A DNA stretch of 64,000 bases from an uncultured Pelagibacteraceae bacterium (GTDB lineage Bacteria; Pseudomonadota; Alphaproteobacteria; Pelagibacterales; Pelagibacteraceae), in assembly GCA_902558225.1 (NCBI GenBank), contig CACEDG010000003.1, positions 1-64,000 on the forward strand, read 5' to 3'. The notes under the pieces are model-generated. The model saw only the letters and a list, made by a program, of their open reading frames with translations. It did not search any database and was not told the DNA's origin. The stretch's first letter is position 1; every line of letters begins with the position of its first letter. A program made the position numbers and the translations under genes. Positions 5,228-61,347 of the stretch are shown here, in pieces.

Positions 5228-6190
5228 ATGAAAAATATTTTAGTTATCGGCGGAGGCGCAATGGGCTCTGCATTTACAATCCCAAGTTTAGAAAATAAAA
5301 ACAATGTGACAATTACTGAACCTTATAGCAAAAGATTCATTAAAGACTTATCCTCAAAAAAAAAATTTCATTCTGCTCTTAAGATAAAATTACCAAAACA
5401 ATTAAGATTTAGAAAATTTTCTAAAAATTTATTAAAAGAAAATTTTGACCTTATAGTAATAGCCTTAAGTCTTCCAGGTATTGACTTTATTGGCAAAGAA
5501 TTAAAAGATTTAAAAGTTAAAACTCCAATTTTGGTTTTGACTAAAGGATTAAAATTTGAAAAAAAAAAGGATAAGGTTTTAACAATTTCAGATCAACTTC
5601 AAAAAAACTATAATTTAAAAAATATTTCAGTCCTAAAAGGGCCTTGTTTGGCAAAGGAATTGGCCAGAAAAAATCAAACTAGTGTAATTATAGCAAATAA
5701 GAATATTAAGATTGCAAAATCTATTGGAAGAAAAATTTCTACAAAATATTATTTAACAGAATATTCTAAAGATGTAGTTGGAGTAGAAGTGTGTTCAGCA
5801 ATAAAGAATATATATTCAATGATAATTGGAGCTGGTCAAAGCCTTAATTCATCATCAAATTTATTTCAAAAAGCAATTCTTGAAATGAGATACTTAAACA
5901 AATATTTCAAAGGTAAAGATGAAACAATCTTAGGGCTTGCCGGGGTGGGTGACTTATATGTTAGTGCCGCAGGTGGAAGAAACAGTAAGATGGGTAGTTT
6001 TTTAGGAAAAGGATTTACATTTAAAACTGCAAAAAAAAGATTTATGCCAAAAGAAACTGTTGAAGGTGAAGAACTTGCAAAAGAAATTGCACCATTTATT
6101 TTAAAAAAAATTGATAAAAAGAAAATTCCGTTAATGATTAATTTACTTAAAACAATTAAAGAGAATAAAAAACTTAAGATAAAAGTTTAA
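5228..6190 (+). CDS. gpsA: NAD(P)-dependent glycerol-3-phosphate dehydrogenase-like protein
   Basis: At 320 aa it is close to the GpsA family length. It has a Rossmann motif at residues 5-12 ([11 protein letters not shown]) and the family blocks [11 protein letters not shown] and [21 protein letters not shown], which contains the catalytic Lys, then [21 protein letters not shown]. GpsA reduces dihydroxyacetone phosphate to sn-glycerol-3-phosphate for phospholipids. The basic, lysine-rich sequence is more divergent than core GpsA proteins, so it could be a paralogue. Its 3' end overlaps the convergent fhs by 4 nt. Confidence 0.85.
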
Positions 6191-7872
6191 AATAGACCCT
6201 CTATATCACCATCTTTATTAAGCTTAATGGAGTCAGCCGCAGGCACCCTTGGAAGTCCTGGCATTGTCATGATTGCTCCACAGACAACAACAATAAATTC
6301 TGCACCTGATGAAAGTCTAATTTCTCTAATTGGCAAAGAATGACCTGTCGGAGCACCTTTTAGACTAGGATCTGTTGAAAAACTATATTGAGTTTTCGCA
6401 ACACATATAGGTAATTCACCATACCCAGCTTCTTCAAAGTTTTTTAATTGATCTCTTATTTTTGTATCTGCGATAACCTCATCTGCTCTGTAAATCTCTT
6501 TTGCTATAGTTTCTATCTTTTTGAAAAGGGGAGTTTTACTTTCATATAAAAATTTAAATTTAGCTTCATTCTTTTCACATAAATCTGTTACATGTTTAGC
6601 TAAATCTTTTGTTCCCTCACCACCATCAGCCCAATGCTTACAAATACTAGCATTTACTTTTAGCTTTTTACAGAACTCAACTAAAGCATTTACCTCTTTA
6701 TCTGTGTCTTTTATAAAGTGATTTATGGCTACGGCCACTGGTAAACCAAATTTTTTTACGTTTTCAATATGTCTTTCAAGGTTTATCAATCCTTTCTTAA
6801 GTGCATCAACATTTTCATTTTTTAAATCATCTTTTGCAACACCACCATGCATCTTTAAAGCTCTTATAGTTGCAACTATAACAACACAACTCGGTTTTAA
6901 ATTTGATTTCCTACATTTAATGTCTAAAAATTTTTCTGCTCCTAAATCTGCACCAAAACCTGCTTCAGTTACAACATAGTCAGCAAGTTTTAATCCAGCT
7001 TTAGTTGCAATTACTGAATTACATCCATGTGCAATATTTGCGAATGGTCCACCATGAATTATTGCAGGATTATTTTCTAATGTTTGTGTAATATTAGGTC
7101 TGATTGCTTCTTTGAGTAAGACAGTCATTGGCCCATGAGCATTTAAATCTTTTGCATAAATTGGTTTTTTTTCTCGAGTATATGCTACTGTAATATTTCC
7201 AATCCTATTTTCTAAATCCTCAAGATTATTAGCAAGGCAAAAGATAGCCATTATCTCAGATGCAACCGTAATATCAAAACCATCTTCTCTTGGAAAACCA
7301 TTAGCAACACCACCAAGATTAATATTTATTGATCTTAAAGCTCTGTCGTTCATATCCATAACTCTTTTCCAAACAATTCTTCTGACATCTATATTTAATT
7401 TATTCCCCCAGTAGATATGATTATCAATTAAAGCAGATAAAAGATTATGTGCTGATGTTATTGCGTGAAAATCTCCTGTAAAATGAAGATTAATTTGTTC
7501 CATCGGGACTACTTGAGCATACCCTCCTCCTGCAGCACCACCTTTCATTCCAAAGGATGGACCTAAACTTGGTTCTCTTAAGCATACAATAGATTTTTTT
7601 CCAATTTTATTTAGTCCATCGTTTAATCCTACGGAAGTGGTTGTTTTACCTTCCCCGGCAGGAGTTGGAGTTATCGCCGTGACTAAAATTAATTTACCGT
7701 CTGGCTTATCTTTTAATGTATCTAAGTATTCCAAGTTTATTTTTGCAATATGTCTGCCCATCGGGCTAAAAGCTGAACTTTCGTCTGGAACATTTACTTT
7801 CGCTAAGATTTCCTTTATGGGAAGCATTTTTGCTTCACGAGCAATTTGAATATCTGATTTTATGTCGCTCAT
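6187..7872 (-). CDS. fhs: Formate-tetrahydrofolate ligase
   Basis: A 561-aa enzyme of normal family length. The P-loop-like motif [14 protein letters not shown] lies near residue 70, and the conserved [22 protein letters not shown] follows. The C-terminus has [14 protein letters not shown] and [16 protein letters not shown]. It catalyses the ATP-dependent, reversible exchange between formate and 10-formyl-THF. Sitting divergently beside soxBDAG, whose sarcosine oxidase product is methylene-THF, it gives the route for oxidising methyl groups to formate with ATP recovery, or for formate assimilation. Confidence 0.97.
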
Positions 7873-7998: not shown

Positions 7999-9255
7999 AT
8001 GCAAAAATATTCAGTTTTTAGTCTTGTTAAAAATGCCCTATCAAATCACGAAAATTGGGACTTAGCTTGGAAAGATCCAACTCCCAAGAAAGAGTATGAT
8101 GTTGTTATTATAGGTGGTGGTGGACATGGTTTAGCAACCGCATATTATCTAGCTAAAGAACACAATATTACTAATGTTGCTATAATTGAAAAAGGTTGGA
8201 TTGGTGGAGGTAATGTTGGTCGAAACACTACGATAATTAGATCAAATTATATGCATGATGACAATGCATTATTTAGCGAATTTGGAATGGATCTTTGGAG
8301 AAGAATGAGCCAAGATTTGAATTACAATGTGATGTTTTCTCCAAGAGGAATAATTAATCTTGCTCACTCAGATGCACAAATGAATACTTATGCTCGAAGA
8401 GGAAATTCAATGAGATTAAACGGTATCGATGCAGTTCTCTTAAATAGGGAAGAAGTGAGGGAGATTATTCCTATGGCTGATTTTTCTGACAATGTACGAT
8501 TTCCAATTTTTGGTGGATTAATGCAGCCTAGTGCGGGAACAGCTAGACACGATGCTGTAGCTTGGGGCTATGCACGTCAGGCAGATGATATGGGTGTAGA
8601 CATAATTCAAAATTGTGAAGTAATTGGATTTGATGTGTCTGCAGGAAAAATTAATGGAGTGAGAACTTCTCGTGGGGACATTAAAGCAAAAAAAATTGGA
8701 TTATGTGTTGCAGGTAGTACAAATATTTTAGCGGAAAAACTTAATATGACATTACCAATTGAGACTCATCTATTACAAGCATGTGTATCTGAGCCAGTGA
8801 AACCAGTTTTAGATAAAGTAGTTACCTTTGGTGCAGGACATTTTTATATCAGCCAGTCTGATAAAGGAGAAATGGTAATGGGTGGTGATCTTGATGGCTA
8901 CAATAGTTATGCACAAAGAGGCAATCTTCCAACACTTCAACATGTTCTAACGGAAGGAATAGCAATGATGCCTTTCTTGAGTAAATTAAAAATGCTTAGG
9001 ACTTGGGGAGGAATAATGGACATGTCTATGGATGGTTCTCCTATAATTGATAAAACTCACATTGAAGGTTTGTATTTAAATTGTGGTTGGTGTTATGGTG
9101 GATTTAAAGCAACACCTGCATCTGGCTGGACATTTGCACACACAATCGCACAAGATAGAGTTCATGAATTAAATGCAGGCTATAGTTTAAATAGATTTAA
9201 CACTGGTCACTTACTTGACGAAAAGGGACTTGGCACAAAAACTTGGATTTCATAA
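7999..9255 (+). CDS. soxB: Heterotetrameric sarcosine oxidase, beta subunit
   Basis: The 418-aa beta subunit is a DAO-family flavoprotein that oxidises sarcosine. The N-terminal FAD motif is VVIIGGGGHGLATAYYLA. GTARHDAVAWGYAR (about residues 178-191) contains the His that covalently holds FMN in characterised enzymes. The C-terminus carries GWCYGGFKATPASG. It is the first gene of the tight set soxB-soxD-soxA-soxG and directly abuts soxD. It is divergent from fhs across 126 AT-rich bases, which must hold both promoters; I could not pick a clear -35/-10 pair there. Confidence 0.96.
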   Translation: MQKYSVFSLVKNALSNHENWDLAWKDPTPKKEYDVVIIGGGGHGLATAYYLAKEHNITNVAIIEKGWIGGGNVGRNTTIIRSNYMHDDNALFSEFGMDLWRRMSQDLNYNVMFSPRGIINLAHSDAQMNTYARRGNSMRLNGIDAVLLNREEVREIIPMADFSDNVRFPIFGGLMQPSAGTARHDAVAWGYARQADDMGVDIIQNCEVIGFDVSAGKINGVRTSRGDIKAKKIGLCVAGSTNILAEKLNMTLPIETHLLQACVSEPVKPVLDKVVTFGAGHFYISQSDKGEMVMGGDLDGYNSYAQRGNLPTLQHVLTEGIAMMPFLSKLKMLRTWGGIMDMSMDGSPIIDKTHIEGLYLNCGWCYGGFKATPASGWTFAHTIAQDRVHELNAGYSLNRFNTGHLLDEKGLGTKTWIS

Positions 9256-9528
9256 ATGCTTTATATAAAATGTCCACACTGTGGAATGAGATCACAGAAT
9301 GAATTTTCATATGGTGGTGATGCAACTATAAAACGACCAGAATTAGGAAAAGAAATATCTGATCAAGATTGGGATAATTTTGTTTACAATAGAAAAAGCT
9401 TAAGAGGGAAACATTGGGAACTTTGGCAACATATATCAGGTTGTAGACAATGGATAAAAGTTGAAAGAGACACTGCTACTCACGAAATTTTCAATACTCT
9501 TAAAGCAAATGAAGAAATTTCATTATGA
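9256..9528 (+). CDS. soxD: Sarcosine oxidase, delta subunit
   Basis: A 90-aa zinc-binding structural subunit. It starts MLYIKCPHCGMR, giving the CxxC pair, and continues NEFSYGGDA. Near residues 60-68 is WQHISGCRQW, with the downstream His and Cys that complete the zinc site in the family. It bridges the alpha and beta subunits and has no catalytic site of its own. It begins immediately after the soxB stop and overlaps soxA by 4 nt (ATGA), which indicates translational coupling. Confidence 0.95.
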   Translation: MLYIKCPHCGMRSQNEFSYGGDATIKRPELGKEISDQDWDNFVYNRKSLRGKHWELWQHISGCRQWIKVERDTATHEIFNTLKANEEISL

Positions 9529-12521
9529 CGCAAAATTTTAGATTAGAAAGTGGTGGATTAATAAATAGAAGTAAAAAAATTTCTTTTAAATTTAATGGTA
9601 AAAATTATTTTGGTTATGAAGGAGACACTCTCGCCTCTGCATTAATTGCTAATGGAGTTCATTTAATTGGAAGAAGTTTCAAATATCATAGACCAAGAGG
9701 TTTTTTTGGAGCTGGGGTTGATGAGCCATATGCAATAGTTCAATTATACAGAAATGGAGAAACAGAACCTAATATAAAAGCTACTGAACAAGAACTTTTT
9801 GAAGGTCTAGAAGCTAAAAGTGTTAATTGTTGGCCGAGTGTGAATTTTGATGTTGGAGCTATAAATAATTTTTTAAAGATATTCCTTCCTGCTGGTTTTT
9901 ATTACAAGACTTTTATGTGGCCAAAAAGTTTTTGGTATAAAATTTATGAACCATTTATCAGAAAAGCTGCTGGTTTAGGCACAGCATCTATAAAACATGA
10001 TAAAGAAAGATATGAACACAAATATGAATATTGTGATCTATTAATCACAGGCTCAGGTCCATCTGGATTAGCGAGTGCTTATTCAGCTGCAAAAAATGGT
10101 GCTAAAGTAATTCTCGCAGAGGACAAATCACGATTTGGAGGAACTCTATTAACAAGTGATGTCAACATAGGAAATCAATCAGGTAAAGAGTGGGCTGACA
10201 GTATTGTTTCTGAACTTAAAGAAATGTCTAATGTTACTATAAAAAATAGGTCTCAAGTTTTTGGTTATTATGATCATAACATGTTGGTTATGTCAGAAAG
10301 AATTAGTGACCATTTACCAAAAACGAAAAAATATCATCCAAAGCAAAAACTTTGGTATATCAGAGCAAAAGAAGTATTAATTTCATCTGGATCAATTGAA
10401 AGACCTATCGTGTTTGGAAATAATGATACTCCAGGCGTAATGTTGTCTTCGGCCGCTAAAGAATACATGAAAGTGTATGGTGTATTAGTTGGAAAAAAAC
10501 CACTTGTTTTTACAAACAATGATAGTGGTTATGAAACAGCAATTGAATTTAAAAAAAATGGTATTAATCCAATAATCTTAGATACTAGAAAAGAACCACG
10601 GTCAGAAATTATTGATGAGGCAAAAAATATGAATATTAATATAAAAAATTCATATGTAGTTGTAGCTGCTCAAGGATATAAAAAAGTAAAATCAGCTGAC
10701 ATAGCTAAAATATCGGATGATAAAGAGAAACTAGGATCAATTGAAAATATAGACTGTGATTGTATTTGTGTTTCTGGTTTTTGGACACCCACAATTCATT
10801 TGGCGTCACAATCTGGGAATAAAACAAAATTTAAGGAGGAAATTGATGCATTTGTTCCTGGTATATCTAAACAAAATGAAAAAACTTTAGGTGCTGCGAA
10901 TGGTATCTTTACTTTAGAAGAAACTTTAAAAGACTCATTTGAACAAGGAAATCGATTGTCAAAAAAAATTACAAATAATGATAACAAAGTTTCTTTTCCT
11001 AATGTTGTTGAAAAAAAGTCTGCAGTGCATGATAAATTCTGGTGTGTACCATTACCAAAGGGAAAAAATTATAAGCGTTTTTTAGACTTTCAAAATGATG
11101 TTGCGGTTTCGGATATAGAGATTGCTCTTAAAGAGGGATATAGGTCTATTGAACACGTGAAAAGATACACTACACTTGGAATGGCTACTGACCAAGGTAA
11201 AACAAGTAATCTTAATGGTTTACAATTAGTATCGAAAATTGAAAATAAGGTTGTGCCAGCAGTTGGACATACAACTTTTAGACCACCTTATACACCAGTT
11301 TCTATTGGAGCAATTGTTGGAAGGGAGGTTGGAAAACACTCAAAACCAACAAGAAAATCTCCTATGCATTCATGGCATGAAAAAAATAATGCAGTTTTTG
11401 TTGATGCAGGAGTTTGGTTGAGGCCAAGATATTACAAACGTGGAGATGAAAACCTATTTGAGGCATCAAAAAGAGAGGCAAAAAATGTTAGAACTAATGT
11501 TGGTGTTTGCGATGTTACTACTTTAGGTAAAATTGATATTAAAGGACCAGACGCTGCAGAGCTTTTGAATAGAGTTTATACAAATGCATGGTTAAAATTA
11601 CCAGTTGGCAAAGCACGATATGGCGTGATGTTGAGAGAAGATGGAATTGTTATGGATGATGGAACAACAACAAGAATATCAGAAAATCACTATCATATGA
11701 CTACAACTACTGCACAAGCTGCCAATGTTCTCTCTCATCTAGAGTATTATCTACAACTAGTTTGGCCAGAGTTAAATGTAAATGTAGTTTCAACAACTGA
11801 ACAATGGGCAGGAGCTGCAATCGCTGGACCAAAATCAAGAGATGTATTAAAAAAACTTTTTCCAAAGTCTGATGTGACGAATGAAGGGCTTCCTTTTATG
11901 GGTTATATTGAAGGCGATTTATTTGGAGTTAAAGCTAAAATTTTTAGAATTTCATTTTCTGGCGAACTTGCATACGAAGTAAATGTTGAGTCAGATTATG
12001 GATATTATATGTGGGAAAAAATAATTGAAATTGGTGAAGAGTTTGGAATTCAACCATATGGAACAGAGGCACTTTCAACTTTAAGAATTGAGATGGGACA
12101 TGTTGCGGGTTCAGAGCTTGATGGTAGGACTATTCCTTATGACAATTCACTTGAAGGATTACTGAGCAAAAAGAAAGATTTTATTGGTAAAAGATCTTTA
12201 ACAAGAAAAGCTTTTGCTGCTGAAGATAGACAAAAAATTGTTGGTGTTGTTCCATTAGATAAAAAAACAAGTATTCCAGAGGGATCTCATTTAGTTAAAG
12301 ACTCAAATGCACCACTTCCAAACCCAAAATTAGGTTATATTTCAGCCTCATGTTGGAGTGTTGAACACGATAATCCTTTTTCCTTAGCAATTTTAAAAGA
12401 TGGAAAGAACATGATAGGAAAAAAATTATTTGTCATGTCACCTTTAAAAAATAAAGTTATTCCAGTTGAGATCGTATCTTCACATTATGTGGATCCTAAA
12501 GGTGAGCGAGTTAGATCATGA
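9525..12521 (+). CDS. soxA: Sarcosine oxidase, alpha subunit
   Basis: The 998-aa alpha subunit has three parts. Residues ~20-105 form a ferredoxin-like domain (FKFNGKNYFGYEGDTLASAL, RSFKYHRPRGFFG). The middle is a dinucleotide-binding flavoprotein domain (LLITGSGPSGLASAYSAAKNGAKV near 170). The C-terminal ~370 residues are a GcvT-type folate domain (RPRYYKRGDENL, GVCDVTTLGKIDIKGPDA, FSGELAYEVNV). The GcvT domain captures the methyl carbon as 5,10-methylene-THF. The gene overlaps soxD by 4 nt and soxG by 4 nt. Confidence 0.96.
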   Translation: MTQNFRLESGGLINRSKKISFKFNGKNYFGYEGDTLASALIANGVHLIGRSFKYHRPRGFFGAGVDEPYAIVQLYRNGETEPNIKATEQELFEGLEAKSVNCWPSVNFDVGAINNFLKIFLPAGFYYKTFMWPKSFWYKIYEPFIRKAAGLGTASIKHDKERYEHKYEYCDLLITGSGPSGLASAYSAAKNGAKVILAEDKSRFGGTLLTSDVNIGNQSGKEWADSIVSELKEMSNVTIKNRSQVFGYYDHNMLVMSERISDHLPKTKKYHPKQKLWYIRAKEVLISSGSIERPIVFGNNDTPGVMLSSAAKEYMKVYGVLVGKKPLVFTNNDSGYETAIEFKKNGINPIILDTRKEPRSEIIDEAKNMNINIKNSYVVVAAQGYKKVKSADIAKISDDKEKLGSIENIDCDCICVSGFWTPTIHLASQSGNKTKFKEEIDAFVPGISKQNEKTLGAANGIFTLEETLKDSFEQGNRLSKKITNNDNKVSFPNVVEKKSAVHDKFWCVPLPKGKNYKRFLDFQNDVAVSDIEIALKEGYRSIEHVKRYTTLGMATDQGKTSNLNGLQLVSKIENKVVPAVGHTTFRPPYTPVSIGAIVGREVGKHSKPTRKSPMHSWHEKNNAVFVDAGVWLRPRYYKRGDENLFEASKREAKNVRTNVGVCDVTTLGKIDIKGPDAAELLNRVYTNAWLKLPVGKARYGVMLREDGIVMDDGTTTRISENHYHMTTTTAQAANVLSHLEYYLQLVWPELNVNVVSTTEQWAGAAIAGPKSRDVLKKLFPKSDVTNEGLPFMGYIEGDLFGVKAKIFRISFSGELAYEVNVESDYGYYMWEKIIEIGEEFGIQPYGTEALSTLRIEMGHVAGSELDGRTIPYDNSLEGLLSKKKDFIGKRSLTRKAFAAEDRQKIVGVVPLDKKTSIPEGSHLVKDSNAPLPNPKLGYISASCWSVEHDNPFSLAILKDGKNMIGKKLFVMSPLKNKVIPVEIVSSHYVDPKGERVRS

Positions 12522-13105
12522 GTTTGATTTCTGCGCTAGCTAAAGTCCATCATCCAGGACAATTCGGTGATTTTGAAGACAAAAAAGGAGATAATCTTTT
12601 AAAAATTTCAGAGAAAAAAAATTTATTAATTGTACAAATAGTCCAGTTTAAGAATTCTAATATTTCAACTGATAGTATTGATATTGATGGTTTAAAATTT
12701 AAAGACACTCCTTTGAATGTGACTTTTAATGAAAATACAAGAATTTTATGGAATGGCCCCAAAAATTGGCTATTGGTGTCTTCAAAAAGAGATTTACTTA
12801 AAAATATTTCTTTAACATTTAAAGAAATGGATTTTGCAGTTACTGATTTATCTCATTCAAGAGCTGTAATTGAAATAGAAGGCAATTATGCAATAGAAGT
12901 TCTTAAGAAAGGATCACCTTTTAATTTTGACGTTTTAAAGAAAAATAATTCAATAAATTCTCTTTATAACAATATTACTTTCACAGTAGATTTACTCAAT
13001 GATAAACCATTCAAAGTAAGGTTATTTGCCTTAAGAAGTTTTGGAGAGTCTTTATATCACTCTATCACTGATTCATCACTAGAGTTTGGTTACGAAAATA
13101 AATAG
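12518..13105 (+). CDS. soxG: Sarcosine oxidase, gamma subunit
   Basis: The 195-aa last member of the sox operon, overlapping soxA by 4 nt. It has the family pattern of a GcvT-like fold: ILWNGPKNWLLVS, then TDLSHSRAVIEIEG, and a C-terminal SFGESLYHSITDSSLEFGYE. The subunit is structural. Sequence conservation within this family is low, so operon position is part of the evidence. It converges on the EamA gene with a 6-nt gap. Confidence 0.92.
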   Translation: MSLISALAKVHHPGQFGDFEDKKGDNLLKISEKKNLLIVQIVQFKNSNISTDSIDIDGLKFKDTPLNVTFNENTRILWNGPKNWLLVSSKRDLLKNISLTFKEMDFAVTDLSHSRAVIEIEGNYAIEVLKKGSPFNFDVLKKNNSINSLYNNITFTVDLLNDKPFKVRLFALRSFGESLYHSITDSSLEFGYENK

Positions 13106-18015: not shown

Positions 18016-18117
18016 GATTTTTTTGCATTTTATTTATTTCAAAATTAGATAAAAATTTCAATAAAATAAATAGTATTTAAAAAAACAACTTGGTATGGTT
18101 AATCATTATTAATCAAA

Positions 18118-19083
18118 ATGAAATTTAAAATTGATAATCTTCAATACTGTAATTGGTCTAGAAAAGTATTTGAAATAAATCGCGAGGCAGGTTTAGATGC
18201 AGTTCATGTTACAATAGTCTATCATGAAGACTTTGACGAACTTCAAAATGAAATTAAAAAGTGGCAAACTTTATTAAAAGAAAATTCAGATTTAATTTTT
18301 TTAGGTCAAAGTTTTAAGGATATTGAAAAAGCCAATAAGGAGAATAAAACTGCAATTTTTTTTGGTTTCCAAAATTGTTCTCCAATAGAAGATGATATCA
18401 ATTTAGTTGAAAAAGTTCATAGTCTTGGATGTAGATTTATGCAACTCACTTACAACAATCAATCATTGCTAGCCACAGGTTGTTATGAAAAAAATGATAG
18501 TGGGGTAACTAATTTTGGAAGGGAAGTTATCCGAGAAATGAATAGAGTAGGTATTGTAGTGGATATGTCTCATTCAGCAGAAAAAAGCACTTTTGATGCA
18601 ATTGAGTTTAGTGAAAAACCAATAGCAATCACTCATGCAAACCCATCCTTTTGGCACGCCGCGAAAAGAAATAAATCTTCTGAGTTATTAAAAACTTTAA
18701 GTGATAGTGGTGGAATATTAGGATTATCTTTATACCCGCATCATCTTAAGGACAATACAAATTGTTCTCTGGAAAGCTTTTGTGAAATGGTGGCGAAAAC
18801 AGCAGAAATAATGAATATTAATAATATTGGTATAGGATCAGATCTTTGTTTAAATCAACCAGATGAGGTTGTTGAATGGATGAGAAATGGAACCTGGTCT
18901 AAAAATAAAAATTATGGAGAAGGCTCTAAAAATAAACAAGGGTTTCCTAAACAGCCCAATTGGTTTGAGGATGCAAGAGGTTTTAAAAATTTAGAAGTAG
19001 GTTTAAAAAAGATTGGTTTTTCAGAGACTGAGACTAATGGGATACTAGGTAACAATTGGTATAACTTTTATAAAACTATCTAA
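18118..19083 (+). CDS. M19 (renal dipeptidase)-like protein lacking several metal ligands
   Basis: The 321-aa protein has the M19 amidohydrolase fold signatures VVDMSHS, AITHANP and IGIGSDLCL, matching three of the usual zinc ligands (two His, one Asp). The N-terminal HxD of classical members (DGHND) is replaced by IDNLQYC, and the bridging Glu region (EGGH) reads GFQNCSPI. Three expected ligands are therefore absent, so ordinary dipeptidase activity is doubtful. It leads a tight operon with a 553-aa unknown, a DUF3726-like protein and a 52-aa CxxC protein. It may act on a different substrate or with one metal. Confidence 0.82.
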   Translation: MKFKIDNLQYCNWSRKVFEINREAGLDAVHVTIVYHEDFDELQNEIKKWQTLLKENSDLIFLGQSFKDIEKANKENKTAIFFGFQNCSPIEDDINLVEKVHSLGCRFMQLTYNNQSLLATGCYEKNDSGVTNFGREVIREMNRVGIVVDMSHSAEKSTFDAIEFSEKPIAITHANPSFWHAAKRNKSSELLKTLSDSGGILGLSLYPHHLKDNTNCSLESFCEMVAKTAEIMNINNIGIGSDLCLNQPDEVVEWMRNGTWSKNKNYGEGSKNKQGFPKQPNWFEDARGFKNLEVGLKKIGFSETETNGILGNNWYNFYKTI

Positions 19084-19085
19084 AT

Positions 19086-20747
19086 ATGAATATAGAATTA
19101 AGAGATCCAAACATCATAATGAAGTTATCAAGACTTGGTTCGTTTCATCAATCAAGATTATCTTTTTTACGAAGTTTTTTAAGTGAATTTAAAGATTGGC
19201 AATATAAAAGAGACTTGTTTGATTTAGACCAAGAGGGTCATGGCACAGCAGTATACTCATTTAAAAAAAAAGACAGGGCTTATTCTTTAATTTGTTATGC
19301 AAACAAAATAAAAGATGATGAAAGATCAGATAGAGTTATAGCAACCAAGTGGGATGCAGCTTTTACGTTACATGATGGAATACCTTTAAAAGAAGACATT
19401 GACAGATTAAGAAATGAAGTTCCAAAACAGGAAGTTGGCAGGTTGTCTTACAAAGAGTTAACATTATCTAGAGCAAATAAATCTGTTAGGATTTTTGATT
19501 ATGTTGTTGAAAGTTTAAGTAATGGAAACCAACCTAATTCAGAACTACTCGAAAAAGTCGGGTATTTATATAGAACGACTGCAGTTTATGGATCAGGTAA
19601 GTTTGGTTTAGCAGATCGATTCAGAATAAAAAATAGAGAGGAAATTAATGGACCATTCAGATTAGAGATGATGTTAGTTTATTTAGTTAGACAATTTACT
19701 TTTGATCAAGTTAATCATGTTGCAAAAAATAAAAATCCCAATTCTGCTGTTAAACTAGATCCTAAAATTTGTAGAAATTTGGGCATAGGAAATTCTACTG
19801 GATTAGGAATGGCCCCATTTATTGTAAATCATCCAACTCTATTAAATAATTGGATACTTAGTAGAGAAATTGCACTTAAAAAAATAAGAGAAATAAAAAT
19901 TGTTAAAAAACAAGATAGAGATTTGTTTAAAGATTGTGTGAAAAGTTCTCTTAGAAATATAACTAATTGGAATACAGAGAGTGAGTATCAACTCAAAAAA
20001 ATTAAACTTTTGCTAAAAGACATCAAAAAATTTATCAGTTTCTTAGATAACGAATTTGATTTTCAAAAAGATTATCCTTTTAATGAAATTTATTTTTGGC
20101 TAGAGAAAGAAACTTGTGAGGAGTGCATAGAATACGTTGTCTCAATAATGATGGAGCCATTTGGTGATATAGTTCAGCCGTTGGTTGCGCAAATGAGCTC
20201 CGAGGAAGAAAAATATTTTAATATTCCAACTGAACGTAATGTTGGAGATTTGAAAAAGATTTTAGAGAATAAATATTCGGATATTTTGAAAATTAATTTT
20301 AATATAGAAGAGAGTAATCAGAAATTTTGGTTTATCTCAAAAAATAAAGAAGAACCAAGATTAGCTAATCGTTTTGAGGAAAATGGTGCAGATTTAGAGC
20401 AACCCTTGGCAATAGCCAGGGATATAAAAAAATTATATGAAAGATTATTACCTTTCAAAGATGTTTTAAAAATAAATCAATTTTTAATTGATAATTCTGA
20501 TTTAAGACACGTTGTTAGAAGAGCTTTTATTATTGAAAAATTTCCATATTCAGAAATACAAGATAACACTATCGGAGAAAATTTAGTTCCAATTGATATG
20601 TTGCGATTAAAATTATCTTTTTTTGGAGCTTTAAAATTTGATCCAAGGTCTGATAAGTGGTTGAGAATATGTATGTTTCAAGGTGCGCCATTACCAAATG
20701 AATTAAAAGATTATGATGAGCAATGGGTTTATAAAACCTACTCTTAA
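19086..20747 (+). CDS. Conserved hypothetical protein of the M19-like/DUF3726 operon
   Basis: A 553-aa soluble protein that I cannot place in a named family. It starts 2 nt after the M19-like gene and ends 3 nt before the DUF3726-like gene, so it is a core member of the operon. Visible features are an N-terminal LGSFHQSRLSFLRSFL and a charged region RVIATKWDAAFTLHDG near residues 95-110, then TAVYGSGKFGLADRF near 166-180. The middle is helical. There is no signal peptide, membrane span or nucleotide-binding loop. The length and well-defined blocks suggest an enzyme or scaffold rather than a spurious ORF. Confidence 0.8.
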   Translation: MNIELRDPNIIMKLSRLGSFHQSRLSFLRSFLSEFKDWQYKRDLFDLDQEGHGTAVYSFKKKDRAYSLICYANKIKDDERSDRVIATKWDAAFTLHDGIPLKEDIDRLRNEVPKQEVGRLSYKELTLSRANKSVRIFDYVVESLSNGNQPNSELLEKVGYLYRTTAVYGSGKFGLADRFRIKNREEINGPFRLEMMLVYLVRQFTFDQVNHVAKNKNPNSAVKLDPKICRNLGIGNSTGLGMAPFIVNHPTLLNNWILSREIALKKIREIKIVKKQDRDLFKDCVKSSLRNITNWNTESEYQLKKIKLLLKDIKKFISFLDNEFDFQKDYPFNEIYFWLEKETCEECIEYVVSIMMEPFGDIVQPLVAQMSSEEEKYFNIPTERNVGDLKKILENKYSDILKINFNIEESNQKFWFISKNKEEPRLANRFEENGADLEQPLAIARDIKKLYERLLPFKDVLKINQFLIDNSDLRHVVRRAFIIEKFPYSEIQDNTIGENLVPIDMLRLKLSFFGALKFDPRSDKWLRICMFQGAPLPNELKDYDEQWVYKTYS

Positions 20748-20750
20748 ATT

Positions 20751-21362
20751 ATGAAATCCTTAAGTGAGATAGAAACTACAGCTAAGAGGGCAAGTCGAGC
20801 CGCTGGTTATTCGTGGGGTATAGCAGAAGAGGTCGGTAAATCTATAAGATTATCTGAATTATTTGGTCTTCCAGCGATCAAACATCTTAATCAATATTAT
20901 CAGAATAAAAAAAAAGAAAATTTTGATGAAATAAAATTTATCAATGAGATTAATAAATCAGATGGAGCACCTTTCTGTCCAATTATTTTGGGTGTTAATT
21001 TTATTGACCAAGTAAAAAACATCGAGACTTTAAAAAAGTGCTTAGTTGAAAATCTTGCTCATCCATTGTTGCTTTTACCTTTTTTAAGTAGAGCTTCGGA
21101 AATTATTGGAAAAAAATTATTAATTTCATTTGATGATTGTAAATTTTTATTGAATTTTAATTTGAGTATCTCATCTAATATTTGGGATAAAGAAATGCCA
21201 ATGTTAGCAAAAAAAGTAGAAATAAGTTTTTTAAACAATGAAGATAATTTTTCAGATCAAGATTGGAAAAATCTCTACAAACTTGCAGAGGACACATTTG
21301 TGGAGGAAACTGATAGTTTAAAAGAGGGTGCAGCGGGGGCTGGTTTGACTGATAATGACTGA
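20751..21362 (+). CDS. DUF3726-like protein
   Basis: The 203-aa protein begins MKSLSEIETTAKRASRAAGYSWGIAEEVGKSIRLSELFGLPAI. This resembles DUF3726, a family of unknown function known from other alphaproteobacteria; the match is from memory of the pattern, so moderately sure. A second block, DGAPFCPIILGVNFIDQ, contains the only N-terminal cysteine. The C-terminus ends KEGAAGAGLTDND. It overlaps the next small CxxC ORF by 8 nt, a sign of coupled translation. Confidence 0.75.
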   Translation: MKSLSEIETTAKRASRAAGYSWGIAEEVGKSIRLSELFGLPAIKHLNQYYQNKKKENFDEIKFINEINKSDGAPFCPIILGVNFIDQVKNIETLKKCLVENLAHPLLLLPFLSRASEIIGKKLLISFDDCKFLLNFNLSISSNIWDKEMPMLAKKVEISFLNNEDNFSDQDWKNLYKLAEDTFVEETDSLKEGAAGAGLTDND

Positions 21363-21513
21363 AGACAAAGAAATAAAAAAAAATCTAAAGGATTTAGATG
21401 ATATTTGTGATGAATGTAAAGAACAAGATGAAAGTGTTACTCAAAACTTGATTCTAACTGGTTTTAAAATTTGTAAGTCTTGCAGAGTTTCTAAAACTAT
21501 TTTTCCAATTTAG
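21355..21513 (+). CDS. 52-aa CxxC/CxxC small protein (not in ORF track)
   Basis: An ATG at 21355, inside the end of the DUF3726-like gene, opens a 52-codon frame ending TAG at 21511-21513. The product has two CxxC pairs, CDEC (18-21) and CKSC (40-43), spaced like a small zinc ribbon or rubredoxin-type knuckle. The N-terminal half is acidic and lysine-rich. It is the fourth member of the M19-like operon and could deliver or hold a metal for it. Its 3' end overlaps the convergent YIP1 gene by 4 nt. Below the track's length limit but well supported by position and motif. Confidence 0.68.
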   Translation: MTEDKEIKKNLKDLDDICDECKEQDESVTQNLILTGFKICKSCRVSKTIFPI

Positions 21514-22055
21514 ATATGGTTGACCGGCAAAGCATTCATTCTACTCATTACAAAAGTAATAGACAAAATAGCAATTATTAAAAAAGATAAAAAAACTATT
21601 CCAAAAGATTTAAAACCTGATTTAAGATTTAATATTTGTTTTGTTGAAATTATCAAAGCTGCAAAAATCCAAAATTGAGTTAAAAAAATTATAGGTATCA
21701 TTAAATCTGGAGTGATTGCGAAAAATCTTAGCAAACCTGGTGCATGTGCAAATCCAACTGCAGTCAATACTTTTTTGAATGGCACTTTTGAAGTTTGTTT
21801 ATCTGGAAAAAGTTTTACTCCAATTACGTATATAAATAATCCCCAAATTAACCAAGTTAAGATCGCGGTGAGACCAGACATACCTATTGCAGTTTTCATT
21901 ATTGTGTTTGCCGCAACAGCACCTGCCATTCCATCAAGTATCATAATCAGACCAGCAAAATATATTGAAGCTTCACCAAAATTTCTATTATCGCTGTATA
22001 GGGTTTTATCTAATTTAATAGACCTAAAAACTATATTTAAAAATTCACCTAACAT
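21510..22055 (-). CDS. YIP1-family membrane protein
   Basis: The 181-aa protein has about five hydrophobic segments. The Yip1-domain pattern is visible: an N-terminal amphipathic part (MLGEFLNIVFRSIKLDKTLYSD), LTWLIWGLFIYVIGVKLFPDKQT, and then the family block VLTAVGFAHAPGLLRFFAITP. Bacterial YIP1 proteins are inner-membrane proteins of unknown function. It follows a 34-aa membrane peptide gene with no gap and is probably expressed with it. Confidence 0.85.
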   Translation of the reverse strand: MLGEFLNIVFRSIKLDKTLYSDNRNFGEASIYFAGLIMILDGMAGAVAANTIMKTAIGMSGLTAILTWLIWGLFIYVIGVKLFPDKQTSKVPFKKVLTAVGFAHAPGLLRFFAITPDLMIPIIFLTQFWIFAALIISTKQILNLKSGFKSFGIVFLSFLIIAILSITFVMSRMNALPVNHI

Positions 22056-22204: not shown

Positions 22205-23563
22205 TTAACCTTTTGAAACTTCTCTTGTATTAGCGTTGAAAGATTCTTTAAATGGAATATCTACAATAACTGCATCTACAGGTTTACCTGGAGTATCAGA
22301 GTATTTTTCAGGTAAATGAACTTTATATTTAGTTCCAACTTTACCTTTTGGAAATCCATTCGCATTTAATGTTCCATCAAAAGGAACATATCCCATTGCA
22401 ATGTTTGTTTTCTTTTCAGGATGCCACCATGGTGACGTAATGAAACCAACCGGATCTCCGCCGCTCTCATTTGATATTAACCAAAAATCTGGCGCATAAT
22501 CATCAATTGGTTTACCACCCATTTCAAATCCAACTAATTGAAGTGCGTATGGTTTCTTACCATCCTTAAGTTCTTTACCCATTTTTTCAAGTGCAGCTTT
22601 GCCAACATAATCAGAAGATTTATTCCATTCACCTTTTCCTGATAAAGAAACCTGGTAACCTAAATTACACTGATAAGGGTTATGTTGCTGGTCCATATCT
22701 TGTCCCCAAGACAGAATTCCAGCTTGAATTCTTCTATGGTGAGCAGGAGCAATAACCATTAAATTATGTTTTTTTCCTGCTTCTAGTACAGCATTCCACA
22801 TTTCATCAGCATATAGAGTTGCATCTCTTAAATAAATCTCATAGCCAGCTTCACCTGAAAAACCTGATTGAGAAATAACACAACTTCTACCAGCAACTTT
22901 TACTTCCGCTAAACCGTAAAATGGCATATTTTCTAAATCAACTTGATCACCTAACAAATCTTTCATTAGAGCCTTTGATTTAGGTCCTTGAATTTGAACA
23001 GGACATGCATCAATTTCCTCAATGGTACAATTAAATCTTCCATCAGCGTTCACACCTTGCAAATACATACCAATATCAGAGTCTGATAAAGAAAACCAAA
23101 ACTCGTCTTTTGAAATTCTTAAAAGAATTGGATCATTTAAAACACCACCATAAGCATTGCATAAAATTACATATCTTGCTCTCATAGGTGAAATTTTTGT
23201 TGCATCTCTTGTAATTACATAATCAACAAATTTTTCTGCATCAGGACCTTTTACTTGTATTTGTCTTTCAACCGCAACATTCCACATTGTTACGTGATTG
23301 ACGATAGCATCATATTCGACCATTGCACCACCGTCCTCTGGTTTAACATAACCTCTTGGGTGATAGATACGATTATAAACTGTTGCTCTCCAACAACCTG
23401 CTTGCATTGATAAATGCCAATATGGTGATTTTCTCACCCTCGTTGAAATTAACATTTCAACTTTTGTTGGCCCACTTTGTCTCAAATTATATGGTACTTT
23501 TCGATCTGATTGATCAACTGAAGTAACATGTTTTAGTTTAGTATAGTCAAATTCTTTAGACAT
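22205..23563 (-). CDS. GcvT-family tetrahydrofolate-dependent methyltransferase, DmdA-like paralogue
   Basis: A 452-aa aminomethyltransferase-family protein. Blocks match the DMSP demethylase branch: ISTRVRKSPYWH, MWNVAVERQIQVKGPDAEKFVDY, LNDPILLRISKDEFWFSLSDSDIGMYLQG and QSGFSGEAGYEIYL. It is about 80 residues longer than typical SAR11 DmdA, so it is probably a different demethylase using THF as methyl acceptor, of unknown methyl donor. The Shine-Dalgarno AAGGAGA sits correctly for the ATG at 23563, not the track's 23569. It overlaps the upstream MetF-like gene by 8 nt, which implies that the methyl-THF made here is handled by that partner. Confidence 0.85.
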   Translation of the reverse strand: MSKEFDYTKLKHVTSVDQSDRKVPYNLRQSGPTKVEMLISTRVRKSPYWHLSMQAGCWRATVYNRIYHPRGYVKPEDGGAMVEYDAIVNHVTMWNVAVERQIQVKGPDAEKFVDYVITRDATKISPMRARYVILCNAYGGVLNDPILLRISKDEFWFSLSDSDIGMYLQGVNADGRFNCTIEEIDACPVQIQGPKSKALMKDLLGDQVDLENMPFYGLAEVKVAGRSCVISQSGFSGEAGYEIYLRDATLYADEMWNAVLEAGKKHNLMVIAPAHHRRIQAGILSWGQDMDQQHNPYQCNLGYQVSLSGKGEWNKSSDYVGKAALEKMGKELKDGKKPYALQLVGFEMGGKPIDDYAPDFWLISNESGGDPVGFITSPWWHPEKKTNIAMGYVPFDGTLNANGFPKGKVGTKYKVHLPEKYSDTPGKPVDAVIVDIPFKESFNANTREVSKG

Positions 23564-24284
23564 AACCATTCTCCTTCAACCACTTGTTAGTTTCCTTCAA
23601 GCCGCCGAATGTATAAATGTGGAAGAAATCAGTATGCGATTTAACTTTCCCAATTAAATCATTAGGGTCTTTAGGTTTCAATAAATCTAATGCCTTACTA
23701 AAGTTAGATTTAAGAAAGTTTAAGGAATTTTTTGCTCCTACAATATTGGCAAATTTAATTAAGCTAGATATTTTTAGAGGTCCAGTAATTCCCACATGCA
23801 CTGGTACGCTTTGTTTAGATATAAAATCTATAATAGGCTGAGGATCCAATAACCATTGGGTTACAATATAATCAGCATAAGGCTTTTTATCTATCATAGC
23901 TTTTTCTAAGTCTGAGTCGGATATATCAGGACTCCCCTCGGGGTGTCCAGCAATTCCTATAGTCATCTTCTCAAAATAACCAGTTTCCAAAAGTTGGAAA
24001 GAACTGTCAAATTTTCCCATTGGCTCTCTACCACCACCAATTATTAAAACTTGTTTCACCCCTCCATCCTTACATCTAGAAACATAATCTTTGAGCTGCT
24101 TTTCATCTTGCATTGATCTTGCCGGAAAGTGCGGCACTGGATTAAAGCCTTTTTTTACTAACTCAACTGCTTGTTGAGCTGTTTGTCTGTAATCTCCCCC
24201 AGGTAGCATAGTAATATAAATGTCATTTACTGCTGGGACTGTATCAAGATCAGTTTGAGGGCCTATTTCGAGTGAAAATTTCAT
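23556..24284 (-). CDS. Methylenetetrahydrofolate reductase-like protein
   Basis: The 242-aa protein is shorter than standard MetF (about 290 aa) and belongs to the divergent MTHFR-like group found with GcvT-family demethylases. Typical blocks are MLPGGDYRQTAQQAVELVKKGFNPVPHFPARSM, GVKQVLIIGGGREPMGKF, TIGIAGHPEGSPDI and PVHVGITGPLKISSLIKFA. It most likely interconverts 5-methyl-THF and 5,10-methylene-THF with a flavin. It is the first gene of the two-gene operon and is divergent from the APS-kinase-like gene across 46 nt. Confidence 0.87.
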   Translation of the reverse strand: MKFSLEIGPQTDLDTVPAVNDIYITMLPGGDYRQTAQQAVELVKKGFNPVPHFPARSMQDEKQLKDYVSRCKDGGVKQVLIIGGGREPMGKFDSSFQLLETGYFEKMTIGIAGHPEGSPDISDSDLEKAMIDKKPYADYIVTQWLLDPQPIIDFISKQSVPVHVGITGPLKISSLIKFANIVGAKNSLNFLKSNFSKALDLLKPKDPNDLIGKVKSHTDFFHIYTFGGLKETNKWLKENGYV

Positions 24285-57533: not shown

Positions 57534-58538
57534 TTAATTTTTTAAATTTTCTAAATCTCTTTTGGTTATTTCAGAAATTTTTATCTCTTTTTTTGAATTT
57601 AATTTAAATCTTTGATATTTATTTTGACCAGGATACATAATTTCTTTTATTCCTTTTATTTTTGGTAATCGTTTAACTTTCTTAATATTATCTTTTATTC
57701 TTTTATTGAAATCTTTTACAAATAAATTTGTTTTAAATGTGATAAACAGGTGTCCAATATTTTGTGGGCCAGTAAAATCATCAAAAGGATCTTTTACTCT
57801 TCCTGCATGATTACCGCCTGTTAAAACACCACTTAATATATCTACCATCCAAGCTAAACCGGAACCCCTAAAACTTGCAATGGGTAATTGAACACCTTTT
57901 AAAGCCTTTTTGGCATTTGTTGTTGGTTTACCAAATCGATCTAAAGCAACTCCATCTGGTATCTTTTTATTATTTCTTGCAGCAACTCTAATCTTACCTC
58001 TATTTATCATTGATATCGAAGTGTCCAAAATAAAAGGGATTTTTGAGCTGGTGGGTGTTCCAAAACAAATTGGGTTCGTGCCAAACAAACTTTTTAATGC
58101 ACCATGGGGAGCAATAGCAGGGGGTGCATTTGTATAAATCATTGTAATCAAATTTTTTTTTACAGCTTGCTCAGCGTAATAACCTGATAAGCCATAATGA
58201 CCACTATTTTTAACAGCCACCAAACCGATACCAGTCTTTTTTGCATTTTGAATTGCTTTTTTAATTGCAACGTCTGCAGCAACAAAACCAATACTATCGT
58301 CAGCATCTATATGAGAGATTGATTGAGATATTTTTTTTATCTTTATTTTAGGTTTAGGATTAATTAATTTTTTAGAAATTCGATCACAATACATTTTCAA
58401 TCGTGATAACCCATGACCATATGCACCAACTAATTCTGCATTTATTAGTGCATTAGCAGATATTAAAGAATGTTTATTACTCAAGCCAAATTTTTGAAAA
58501 ATATTGATTATCTCTTTTTTTAATTTTTCAGTTCTCAA
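57534..58538 (-). CDS. Ldh-family malate/sulfolactate-type dehydrogenase
   Basis: The protein is about 334 aa from a TTG at 58538 (1 nt past the tauC stop, after the Shine-Dalgarno GGAAAGG); the track start at 58574 would overlap tauC. It shows the Ldh/ComC family pattern: ALINAELVGAYGHGLSRLKMYCDRI, GIGLVAVKNSGHYGLSGYYAEQAVKKNLITMIYTNAPPAIAPHGA and FGTNPICFGTP. Such NAD(P)-dependent enzymes act on malate, lactate or (in ComC) sulfolactate. Position between tauC and pta-hpsN makes sulfolactate the best guess. Substrate not proven. Confidence 0.85.
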   Translation of the reverse strand: MRTEKLKKEIINIFQKFGLSNKHSLISANALINAELVGAYGHGLSRLKMYCDRISKKLINPKPKIKIKKISQSISHIDADDSIGFVAADVAIKKAIQNAKKTGIGLVAVKNSGHYGLSGYYAEQAVKKNLITMIYTNAPPAIAPHGALKSLFGTNPICFGTPTSSKIPFILDTSISMINRGKIRVAARNNKKIPDGVALDRFGKPTTNAKKALKGVQLPIASFRGSGLAWMVDILSGVLTGGNHAGRVKDPFDDFTGPQNIGHLFITFKTNLFVKDFNKRIKDNIKKVKRLPKIKGIKEIMYPGQNKYQRFKLNSKKEIKISEITKRDLENLKN

Positions 58539-58539
58539 T

Positions 58540-60462
58540 TTAACCTTTCCCACGCCAAGGTATTGTTTTATCAATTATTTTTCTTAAAGTTATGTCAAAC
58601 AAAAGACCAAGCATACCCATTATGAATATCGTGATCCAAATAACTTCATATTGAAAATATTTTTTTGCTACATTCTCAACAAAACCAATACCCGTAGTTC
58701 CTGCTAAGAACTCTGCAGCTACTAAAGTTCCCCAGCACATACCAACAGCAACTCTTATTCCAGTTAATATCTCTGGAAGAGAGTTGGGAAAAATGACGTA
58801 TCTTAATATTTGTTTTTTTGAAGCGCCTAAAGAGTGAGCTGCATGAATTTTTGATAATTGAGTTCCTGATGCCCCAGCTCTTGCCGAAATAATCATAATA
58901 GATAATGAAACCATAAATAATAAGAAAACTTTACCCGTATTATCAATTCCTAAAACGGAAATAATAAGAGGAGCCCAAGCTAAAGGAGGAACTGGTCTGT
59001 AAAGTTCAATTAATGGATCAAAAAAACCTTTAGCAAATCTATTTAAACCCATGAATAAACCTAGGGGGACGCCAATAAGTATTCCAAAAACCAATCCTAA
59101 AAATACTCTCAAAAAAGAATCCCAAATATGACCATAAGGTACAGGCACTTTAAATAACTCAAAGTCGCCAGTGACAACTTTAAGTACGTAGCCCTTAAAG
59201 TTTTGTTTCACTATTCCTTCTTTAGTATGAACTGGGTAATCACCTGGAAGGATATCAGCTATCCAATCTGGTAAAAGAAAACCAATCATCTTACTTACAT
59301 CAACCATATCTATCCATAAAAGAGGAATGTCTTTGTAGCCTACACTGGGTTTCAACATAAGTACGAACTTGTTAAAAGTATCTGAAGGTTTTGGAAGCCA
59401 TCGACCTGAGCCTTGCTCAGAACAACTTGGACCACTTGCAACAATTGTTCCTGCTGGAAATAAAAAAATATCAATGAACCTTAAACCACCCTGAGCTTCC
59501 TTTTGTGCAACATCAAATTTAATAATTGCATTTTGCATTTTATCTAATGCTTTAGGGGGGTATATGCTGGCAAATTCTATTCTTCTTGCAATCTTAACAA
59601 TATTTTTTGCATAATTTGAAGATAGGTCTTCACTATCTAAATCTTTTCTATAAGATTTAATTTCATCTTTAAGCTCTTTAATATGATTTTTGAATTCTGG
59701 ATTATGATTTCTTAATTTAAAAAATTCATCGCTTATCAAATTTAATTCTTTAGCAGCTGTATGAAATTTTAAACCTCTATCTGTTGCAGGAATTAATGGC
59801 ACCTCTATTGTATTTTCTATAGATCCAGTTCCTGCACTTACTTTAACTATACCCCATCCACCTTCCTCACCTACAGCTCTTTGTCTTTCACTATATTGTT
59901 GTTCCGTTTCAAAAGGATAATCAGGTTTCTTAAAATTCTCAGTTAAAAGATTTATCTTACCGGTGATATCATCAATTTTTTGTTTTGTTTCAATTTCAAG
60001 TAAGTCTTCATTAGTTAGTAAAGGAATTAATTGGCTAGTTTTATTTACATAGCTAGCAAGGATTGTTTTTTGTTGACCATTTAATTCATCAGAAGTTTGT
60101 ATTTCTTCCAGGATTTGTTGAAGATTTTTATTCTCTTTTTTTATTTGAGAAGTGCTTTTAAATTCTCTTTCTTCAATTGGAAATTGATATTTTAAACCTA
60201 ATAACGAGTCATTAACTTTAGCTACTTGGCAAAGTTCATTAGCAGATTTTGGATAAAATCCCTTTGCGATATCCCATGAATAATAAAGCCATACTAAAAG
60301 AAGAAAACTACTTCCAACTATGATCCAATGCGTACCGCCTTTTGCTCTTTCAGGATTTCCAAAAACTGCATCAACTTTTTCAGTTCTTATTAATCGTCTC
60401 CCATAAAGAATACATCCAATAACAGCAAAAAAAATTAAAAAAGTTACTATTTGAGTTAACAT
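58540..60462 (-). CDS. tauC: Taurine-type ABC transporter permease with long N-terminal extension
   Basis: The C-terminal ~230 residues are a normal TauC/SsuC permease (IWDSFLRVFLGLVFGILIGVPLGLFMGLNRFAKGFFDPLIELYRPVPPLAWAPLIIS, EAA-like loop HAAHSLGASKKQILRYVIFPNSLPEILTGIR). Before it lie about 400 extra residues: two N-terminal helices (IVTFLIFFAVIGCILYG and WIIVGSSFLLLVWLYYSW) and a large hydrophilic, coiled-coil-prone domain, probably periplasmic. Total 640 aa against about 270 for the family. The extension has IDIFLFPAGTIVASGPSCSEQGSGRWLPKPSDTFN at its end. Its function is unknown. It abuts tauB. Confidence 0.85.
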   Translation of the reverse strand: MLTQIVTFLIFFAVIGCILYGRRLIRTEKVDAVFGNPERAKGGTHWIIVGSSFLLLVWLYYSWDIAKGFYPKSANELCQVAKVNDSLLGLKYQFPIEEREFKSTSQIKKENKNLQQILEEIQTSDELNGQQKTILASYVNKTSQLIPLLTNEDLLEIETKQKIDDITGKINLLTENFKKPDYPFETEQQYSERQRAVGEEGGWGIVKVSAGTGSIENTIEVPLIPATDRGLKFHTAAKELNLISDEFFKLRNHNPEFKNHIKELKDEIKSYRKDLDSEDLSSNYAKNIVKIARRIEFASIYPPKALDKMQNAIIKFDVAQKEAQGGLRFIDIFLFPAGTIVASGPSCSEQGSGRWLPKPSDTFNKFVLMLKPSVGYKDIPLLWIDMVDVSKMIGFLLPDWIADILPGDYPVHTKEGIVKQNFKGYVLKVVTGDFELFKVPVPYGHIWDSFLRVFLGLVFGILIGVPLGLFMGLNRFAKGFFDPLIELYRPVPPLAWAPLIISVLGIDNTGKVFLLFMVSLSIMIISARAGASGTQLSKIHAAHSLGASKKQILRYVIFPNSLPEILTGIRVAVGMCWGTLVAAEFLAGTTGIGFVENVAKKYFQYEVIWITIFIMGMLGLLFDITLRKIIDKTIPWRGKG

Positions 60463-61260
60463 CTAATTTTCTTTCCCCATTATTTCTTCTTCCATATTCC
60501 AAATCATTTCTAAAATTTCTTCTCGTTTTGCAGAAAAATCTTTATTTTTTTTTATTTCTCTTAAATCCTCCTTCAAGCCCATTGACGCAAAGGGAAGATT
60601 ATATTCTTTATGTATTCGTCCTGGCCTTGGAGCCATTACATATAATCTTTCACCAAGTAATAAAGCTTCTTCAACAGAGTGAGTAATTAGTATGATTGTT
60701 TTTCCGGTTTCTTTCCAAATTTTAAGAACTAACGATTGCATTTTTTCTCTGGTTAATGCATCAAGTGCCCCCAATGGTTCATCCATAAGAATTAAATCTG
60801 GATCATTTATCAAACATCTAGCAAGCGCAACTCTCTGCTGCATTCCTCCTGATAATTGATATGTTGGGGTATTTCCAAATCCTTTAAGCCCAACTATTTC
60901 TAACCATTCATCAACTTTATTTTGTGTTTTGATTGGATCCTCATTTTTCATTCTTAGTCCAAAGTTCACATTTTCGGCGACTGTTAACCACTCAAACAAA
61001 GCACCTTGTTGAAAGACCATTCCTCTTTCAACTCCAGGGCCATCTATTTCTTTATTATTTAAAGTTATAACTCCTGAAGTTGGTCTGATAAATCCTGCTG
61101 TTATATTTAGTAAAGTTGTTTTTCCGCACCCAGAAGGACCTAATACGGTAAGGAGCTCTCCTTTTTTAAGAGTAAAATTTAAATCTTTCAATGCATGAAC
61201 TGTTTCTCCTTTAGGAGTTTTAAAAATCATATTTAGGTTTTGAGAAACTAAATCACTCAT
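60463..61260 (-). CDS. tauB: Taurine-type ABC transporter ATP-binding protein
   Basis: The 265-aa protein has Walker A LGPSGCGKTTLLNITAGF, signature YQLSGGMQQRVALARCL, Walker B PDLILMDEPLGALDALTRE and the switch His in ITHSVEEAL. FQQGALFEWLTVAENVNFGLRMK is typical of the TauB/SsuB branch, which also serves nitrate and cyanate systems. It starts 0 nt before tauC and 87 nt after tauA, that gap holding a strong terminator. Confidence 0.93.
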   Translation of the reverse strand: MSDLVSQNLNMIFKTPKGETVHALKDLNFTLKKGELLTVLGPSGCGKTTLLNITAGFIRPTSGVITLNNKEIDGPGVERGMVFQQGALFEWLTVAENVNFGLRMKNEDPIKTQNKVDEWLEIVGLKGFGNTPTYQLSGGMQQRVALARCLINDPDLILMDEPLGALDALTREKMQSLVLKIWKETGKTIILITHSVEEALLLGERLYVMAPRPGRIHKEYNLPFASMGLKEDLREIKKNKDFSAKREEILEMIWNMEEEIMGKEN

Positions 61261-61285
61261 AAAAGACTTTATATTAGAATTTCTT

Positions 61286-61327: not shown

Positions 61328-61347
61328 AAATTTTATCTACCTTTAGA

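Follow-up and report, generated by a model that had tools for sequence, protein, structure and literature searches.

The 64,000-nucleotide stretch analyzed here (the window; positions 1 to 64,000 of contig CACEDG010000003.1, from an uncultured Pelagibacteraceae bacterium) is assigned to SAR11 by its closest named relatives, with identities of up to 96% for a protein of 553 amino acids (aa), and carries at positions 18118-21513 four tightly packed genes on the plus strand. The open reading frames (ORFs), the gaps of 2 and 3 nt and the 8-nt overlap reported in an initial annotation of this locus were all recovered, and the genes and the region preceding them are as follows.

18016-18117, strand unassigned: intergenic region between purE and the M19 gene, resembling the sequence upstream of the 52-aa gene in genomes lacking the three genes listed next
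18118-19083, plus strand: M19-fold amidohydrolase-like protein of 321 aa, matching Pfam Peptidase_M19 (PF01244) with an E value of 2e-70; member of the core trio
19086-20747, plus strand: 553-aa protein without known family; putative catalytic center of the module
20751-21362, plus strand: DUF3726 protein of 203 aa, matching DUF3726 with an E value of 9e-21; predicted degenerate, truncated Ldh_2-fold subunit
21355-21513, plus strand: 52-aa CxxC/CxxC protein, no family above cut-off; outside the module

No Rfam family was found in the window, and promoter-like sites were no more frequent in it than in shuffled sequences.

The M19-like, 553-aa and DUF3726 genes form a true module, to which the fourth gene does not belong. 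Among 61 relatives, the same 40 carry both the 553-aa and the M19 genes, the latter never occurring without the former, and the DUF3726 gene is found in 39 of these 40 (the contig of the remaining one, G008, is cut at this point) as well as in three contig-end fragments. Several of the relatives are incomplete genomes, and the absence of the trio is firm only at the sites whose flanks are intact (L200, L201 and L202). The trio is also complete, on one strand and nearly gapless in each of 80 named SAR11 loci. Because gene order is generally conserved in SAR11, linkage within this group is weak evidence by itself, and the occurrence of the trio in unrelated surroundings is the stronger argument. 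Homologues of the 553-aa protein sharing 25-46% identity with it are present in Proteobacteria and in a haloarchaeon; of the 398 Pseudomonadota genomes sampled, 40 encode the protein, most of them belonging to one family, and it also occurs on 168 plasmid records, including those of Phaeobacter, Sinorhizobium, Caballeronia, Vibrio and the haloarchaeon Natrinema. No relatives were found on viral contigs.

The distribution of the 52-aa gene follows another pattern. Of the 80 SAR11 trio loci, 72 carry it; in all 72 cases its overlap with the DUF3726 gene is 8 nt and the four cysteines of its product are invariant, and it is probably co-transcribed with the trio here. These features would suit the model put forward in the initial annotation, namely that the four genes form an operon whose M19 enzyme, with its altered metal site, is loaded or supported by the small zinc-ribbon-like protein. 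Against this model, three genomes lacking the trio (G029, G036 and G016; sites L200, L201 and L202) have the 52-aa gene directly after purE; in G030, the trio lies on a separate contig without the 52-aa gene, which remains beside p181, a 181-aa gene described below; and the gene is missing from six testable, intact trio loci and from the whole of a related family (f2) that has the trio. Nor is it annotated in the trio clusters found outside SAR11. The 52-aa gene is thus not present or absent together with the trio, the proposed role of its product as a metal handler is rejected, and the four-gene model as a whole is very unlikely. What stands of the earlier proposal of a changed activity with dedicated partners concerns the trio only, which is all-or-none across genomes and travels together across Proteobacteria.

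A block of the form TTATTTCAAAATTA.ATAAA.ATTTCAATAAAAT or similar, read by eye, is common to the window, L200, L201 and L030; by the same reading, this upstream sequence precedes the M19 gene where the trio is present and the 52-aa gene where it is absent. Given this similarity and the existence of sites without the trio, the trio behaves as a cassette placed between the upstream region and the older small gene. Separately, the 52-aa gene adjoins a convergent gene of 181 aa without known family (p181, 21510-22055; the two span 21355-22055 in the window) whether or not a SAR11 locus contains the trio, and these two may be the real functional pair.

The match to PF01244 and further matches to M19 chains in the PDB place the first protein of the trio in the M19 fold. 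By comparison with renal dipeptidase, the HxD motif, which reads LQY, and the bridging Glu, replaced by Gln85, are gone and His152, His173 and Asp242 are retained, as was first noted from the translation; three of the six metal ligands of a binuclear dipeptidase are absent. Across 118 homologues from trio loci, D6, Q9, Q85, N86, H152, H173 and D242 are invariant wherever covered, with Gln85 found in 117 homologues and gapped in one, and H152, H173 and D242 found in all 118. The strong Pfam match of this protein might suggest an ordinary dipeptidase, or an enzyme of peptide recycling, that lies by chance next to two genes of unknown function. Such a reading is hardly credible in view of the loss of these three ligands from every homologue examined, the unfailing association of the M19 gene with the 553-aa gene among the 61 relatives, and partners that consist of catabolic dehydrogenases and osmolyte transporters.

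The nearest solved structure is 2i5g (E 7e-57), an "amidohydrolase" taken here to be the protein of the pepD-hypothetical-dgcAB operons. It too is devoid of the HxD motif and reads GFQN where the bridging Glu would be expected, but is about one third identical to the window protein and lacks Gln9, and the two 2i5g-like loci that were viewed have no annotated 553-aa or DUF3726 partner. A predicted dipeptidase is encoded beside dimethylglycine demethylase genes in the pepD-hypothetical-dgcAB operons of P. aeruginosa and V. natriegens (PMC12093977). More broadly, beta-mononuclear amidohydrolases such as E. coli NagA and PpOngB hydrolyze N-acyl groups with one metal (PMC12017989, PMC6016474). Like the window protein, E. 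coli NagA has lost the alpha-site motif (QxN for HxH) and kept two His and the catalytic Asp; in NagA and PpOngB, however, the third ligand is Glu or Cys, whereas the window protein has Gln85 at this place. The residues of the M19-like protein are therefore suggestive of a single-metal site from which the alpha-metal ligands have been lost and in which the beta side has kept two His and the Asp. It is because the third ligand is Gln rather than Glu or Cys that this is put forward as a suggestion, a metal-free site being possible as well.

The third protein, whose likeness to DUF3726 had been recognized from the outset, most plausibly represents a subunit of the Ldh_2 fold that is degenerate and probably non-catalytic. 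Ldh_2 is the type 2 malate/lactate dehydrogenase family, which includes Delta1-piperideine-2-carboxylate reductase. Searching the PDB with an AlphaFold model of the protein (AF2; mean predicted local distance difference test score, pLDDT, of 87) returned Ldh_2 family members as its first 21 matches, mostly with probabilities of 0.94-1.00 but with E values of only 0.01-0.35. A haloarchaeal counterpart matches Ldh_2 at 4.8e-9, and a Vibrio counterpart matches DUF3726 and, weakly, Ldh_2. Direct hhalign comparison of DUF3726 with Ldh_2 is weak (probability 9%, E 0.0035), so that the assignment relies on the fold search and on the archaeal bridge sequence. While Ldh_2 members are the first fold match of the model among all PDB entries, the DUF3726 protein is shorter than they are (about 200 aa) and, as read from its sequence, is devoid of their conserved SHG motif, whose H48 and G49 are invariant in the Ldh_2 alignment. 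In the haloarchaeal locus (L023, 9965-12621), a homologue of the 553-aa protein is followed by a 317-aa Ldh_2-like protein that bridges DUF3726 and Ldh_2; an aldehyde dehydrogenase (ALDH) gene and a BCCT transporter gene are nearby, and no M19 gene was found.

The 553-aa protein has no Pfam or NCBIfam match, in agreement with its initial description as an unknown, and no match in the PDB. A profile built from ten diverse homologues gave only chance-level matches to PDB sequences, and its AF2 model (mean pLDDT 69) found no PDB match in a fold search (best E 0.69), and therefore no function can be proposed for it on the basis of its fold.

Outside SAR11, the trio is part of larger clusters whose common order is LysR, ALDH, M19, (BCCT), 553, DUF3726 and (Ldh_2). 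In the 29 non-SAR11 loci, M19 was found 28 times, DUF3726 26 times, LysR 22 times, ALDH 21 times, BCCT 14 times and Ldh_2 11 times; glycine-betaine ABC transporters also occur within trio clusters. The ALDH is nearest to models of 2,5-dioxovalerate/alpha-ketoglutaric semialdehyde dehydrogenases, at scores below cut-off, an affinity that suits a C5 semialdehyde. Phaeobacter gallaeciensis and Roseateles have, next to the cluster, genes of the soxBDAG type, that is, of the sarcosine oxidase or N-methylglutamate dehydrogenase (Mgd) type, and Ruegeria TM1040 is arranged similarly. P. gallaeciensis and Roseateles also possess a regulator of the AraC/GbdR type, whose gene separates the Sox genes from the cluster in L022 and L027. 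In a genome from the window's own order (G050), the genes for ALDH, Ldh_2, DUF3726, 553, M19, SoxB and SoxA are contiguous.

Divergent versions of the trio are found in rhizobia (L026, 10001-13390; L028, 9851-13259; L194), with a 553-aa homologue of 25-28% identity, a third gene, an M19 gene and different ABC transporters; the Aminobacter version is near genes of the trimethylamine methyltransferase type and B12-binding genes. This divergent trio probably serves another substrate.

On these grounds, we propose, with a probability of roughly 0.7, that the trio is the core, in SAR11, of a bacterial module that catabolizes an N-methylated betaine-like osmolyte, with homarine (N-methylpicolinate) as the likeliest candidate, and feeds N-methylglutamate to Mgd; both the substrate and the chemistry set out below are what we infer. 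Ferrer-Gonzalez et al. reportedly described in 2026 (Nat Microbiol 11:1531) a homarine catabolic operon of Rhodobacterales and SAR11, homABCDER, comprising five enzyme genes and a regulator and converting homarine to N-methylglutamate and glutamate via Mgd; the trio would be part of it. The non-SAR11 clusters appear to resemble this reported operon in having five enzyme-type genes, a LysR gene and Mgd-type neighbors, and five enzyme genes and a regulator are united in one cluster in the Roseobacter group and in Roseateles. The initial statement that the genes have no assigned pathway is thus probably out of date, as the neighborhood fits the reported operon and is tied to Mgd-type genes. R. 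pomeroyi, which is related to the trio-bearing Ruegeria, removes homarine within hours. According to PMC13390433, which cites the 2026 pathway paper, homarine catabolism involves Mgd, and a linkage of mgd to tmaR, a regulator gene of the AraC type, is frequent.

Since the seven carbons of homarine become the six of N-methylglutamate, the ring has to give up one carbon (C6). In the simple scheme proposed here, the 553-aa protein, with DUF3726 as its non-catalytic Ldh_2-like partner, would open the pyridinium ring at C5-C6; the ALDH would oxidize the resulting C5 semialdehyde; the M19-like protein would function as an amidohydrolase with a single metal at the beta site and release the N-formyl group as formate; the Ldh_2 enzyme would reduce the N-methylimine to N-methylglutamate; and the heterotetrameric sarcosine-oxidase-type Mgd would demethylate the latter to glutamate and methylene-tetrahydrofolate (methylene-THF). 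The further possibility that the trio represents a new pyridinium-ring-opening system in the most abundant ocean bacteria, combining a 553-aa catalyst of new fold, a dead Ldh_2-fold subunit and a single-metal N-deformylase of the M19 fold, is advanced tentatively and is, in our view, rather doubtful.

The BCCT and glycine-betaine transporters, the annotation of flanking genes as sarcosine oxidase, the existence of the divergent rhizobial versions and, in P. inhibens, a dmdA/dmdD cluster adjoining the trio cluster could also mean that the module degrades some other N-methylated or betaine osmolyte, such as trigonelline, stachydrine, hydroxyproline betaine or a compound linked to dimethylsulfoniopropionate (DMSP), with the same final sarcosine-oxidase-type oxidation. 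We consider this unlikely, given that a picolinate ring accounts better for an end product of the N-methylglutamate type and for an ALDH whose nearest models are alpha-ketoglutaric semialdehyde dehydrogenases, and that dmd neighbors were not seen in the P. gallaeciensis cluster.

The homarine assignment also has to accommodate the genes available in the window and its genus. Five kilobases from the trio lie soxBDAG-type genes, next to a one-carbon gene.

6187-7872, minus strand: formate-THF ligase (fhs), PF01268 at 1e-270
7999-9255, plus strand: soxB-like beta subunit, candidate Mgd or sarcosine oxidase; TIGR01373; 61% to the SoxB beside the Roseateles cluster
9265-9489 (extent of the tblastn match), plus strand: soxD-like delta subunit; 41% to Roseateles SoxD by tblastn
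9525-12521, plus strand: soxA-like alpha subunit, candidate Mgd; TIGR01372 above cut-off; 44% to the SoxA beside the Roseateles cluster
12518-13105, plus strand: soxG-like gamma subunit, candidate Mgd; TIGR01375 at 1e-14, below cut-off

Genes orthologous to the soxB-like gene of the window are contiguous with the trio in L053, and fhs could serve to assimilate the one-carbon unit that the proposed pathway would release. Family models do not separate Mgd from sarcosine oxidase. The window resembles the one-carbon/osmolyte gene set of strain HTCC1062 (PMC3160333) in holding fhs, soxBDAG, a GcvT-like/MetF-like pair, a dimethylglycine dehydrogenase-like gene and electron-transfer flavoprotein (ETF) genes.

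Several points weigh against homarine as the substrate and against the scheme given above. The match of the trio clusters to the reported homarine operon is tentative, and the window differs from that operon in grouping only three genes, with no LysR, ALDH or Ldh_2 gene alongside. Cleavage of the ring by the 553-aa protein finds no fold or cofactor support in its model and fold search. The choice between Mgd and sarcosine oxidase for SAR11 soxBDAG has been called unclear (PMC3160333). In the window's genus, the cluster ALDH has no close orthologue (41% at best), the nearest Ldh_2 is 38% identical and lies in an unrelated neighborhood, and no trio-linked Ldh_2 was found, from which it follows that the pathway is partial there or that general enzymes fill in. 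Finally, the low identity and other transporters of the rhizobial trios suggest that these systems act on more than one substrate.

If correct, the proposal singles out the SAR11 genomes that have the core needed to exploit a common algal nitrogen osmolyte, and it identifies this core as a cassette gained or lost at a defined site. The 553-aa protein and DUF3726, both of them unannotated families, would likewise share a role with a mis-annotated "membrane dipeptidase", and the proposal would offer a route to settling which SAR11 soxBDAG operon encodes N-methylglutamate dehydrogenase, the question raised in PMC3160333.

Candidates for the missing partners were considered and set aside. The Ldh_2 gene of the window (57534-58574) is about 28% identical to the cluster Ldh_2 and belongs to an organosulfonate-type locus; the Ldh_2 found throughout the genus (contig C8) is flanked by housekeeping genes and is present in G009, where the trio is not. 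Strict coupling of the related-family ALDH to the trio is unsupported, with G041, G042 and G047 carrying the ALDH without detected M19 or 553 genes.

Elsewhere in the window, a GcvT-like gene near DMSP demethylase (below cut-off) overlaps a short MetF-like gene (22205-24284), the pair resembling SAR11_1265/SAR11_1264 (PMC3160333). The region at 57534-63816 has the look of an organosulfonate locus for 2,3-dihydroxypropane-1-sulfonate (DHPS) or taurine: its Ldh_2 gene is closest to L-sulfolactate dehydrogenase and is accompanied by PTA-like and histidinol-dehydrogenase-like genes, by an ABC transporter of the taurine type and by an AptA-like omega-aminotransferase. Within it, a 640-aa ORF (58540-60462) has an ABC permease domain only in its C-terminal third (residues 464-627), suggestive of a permease fusion or a long N-terminal extension.

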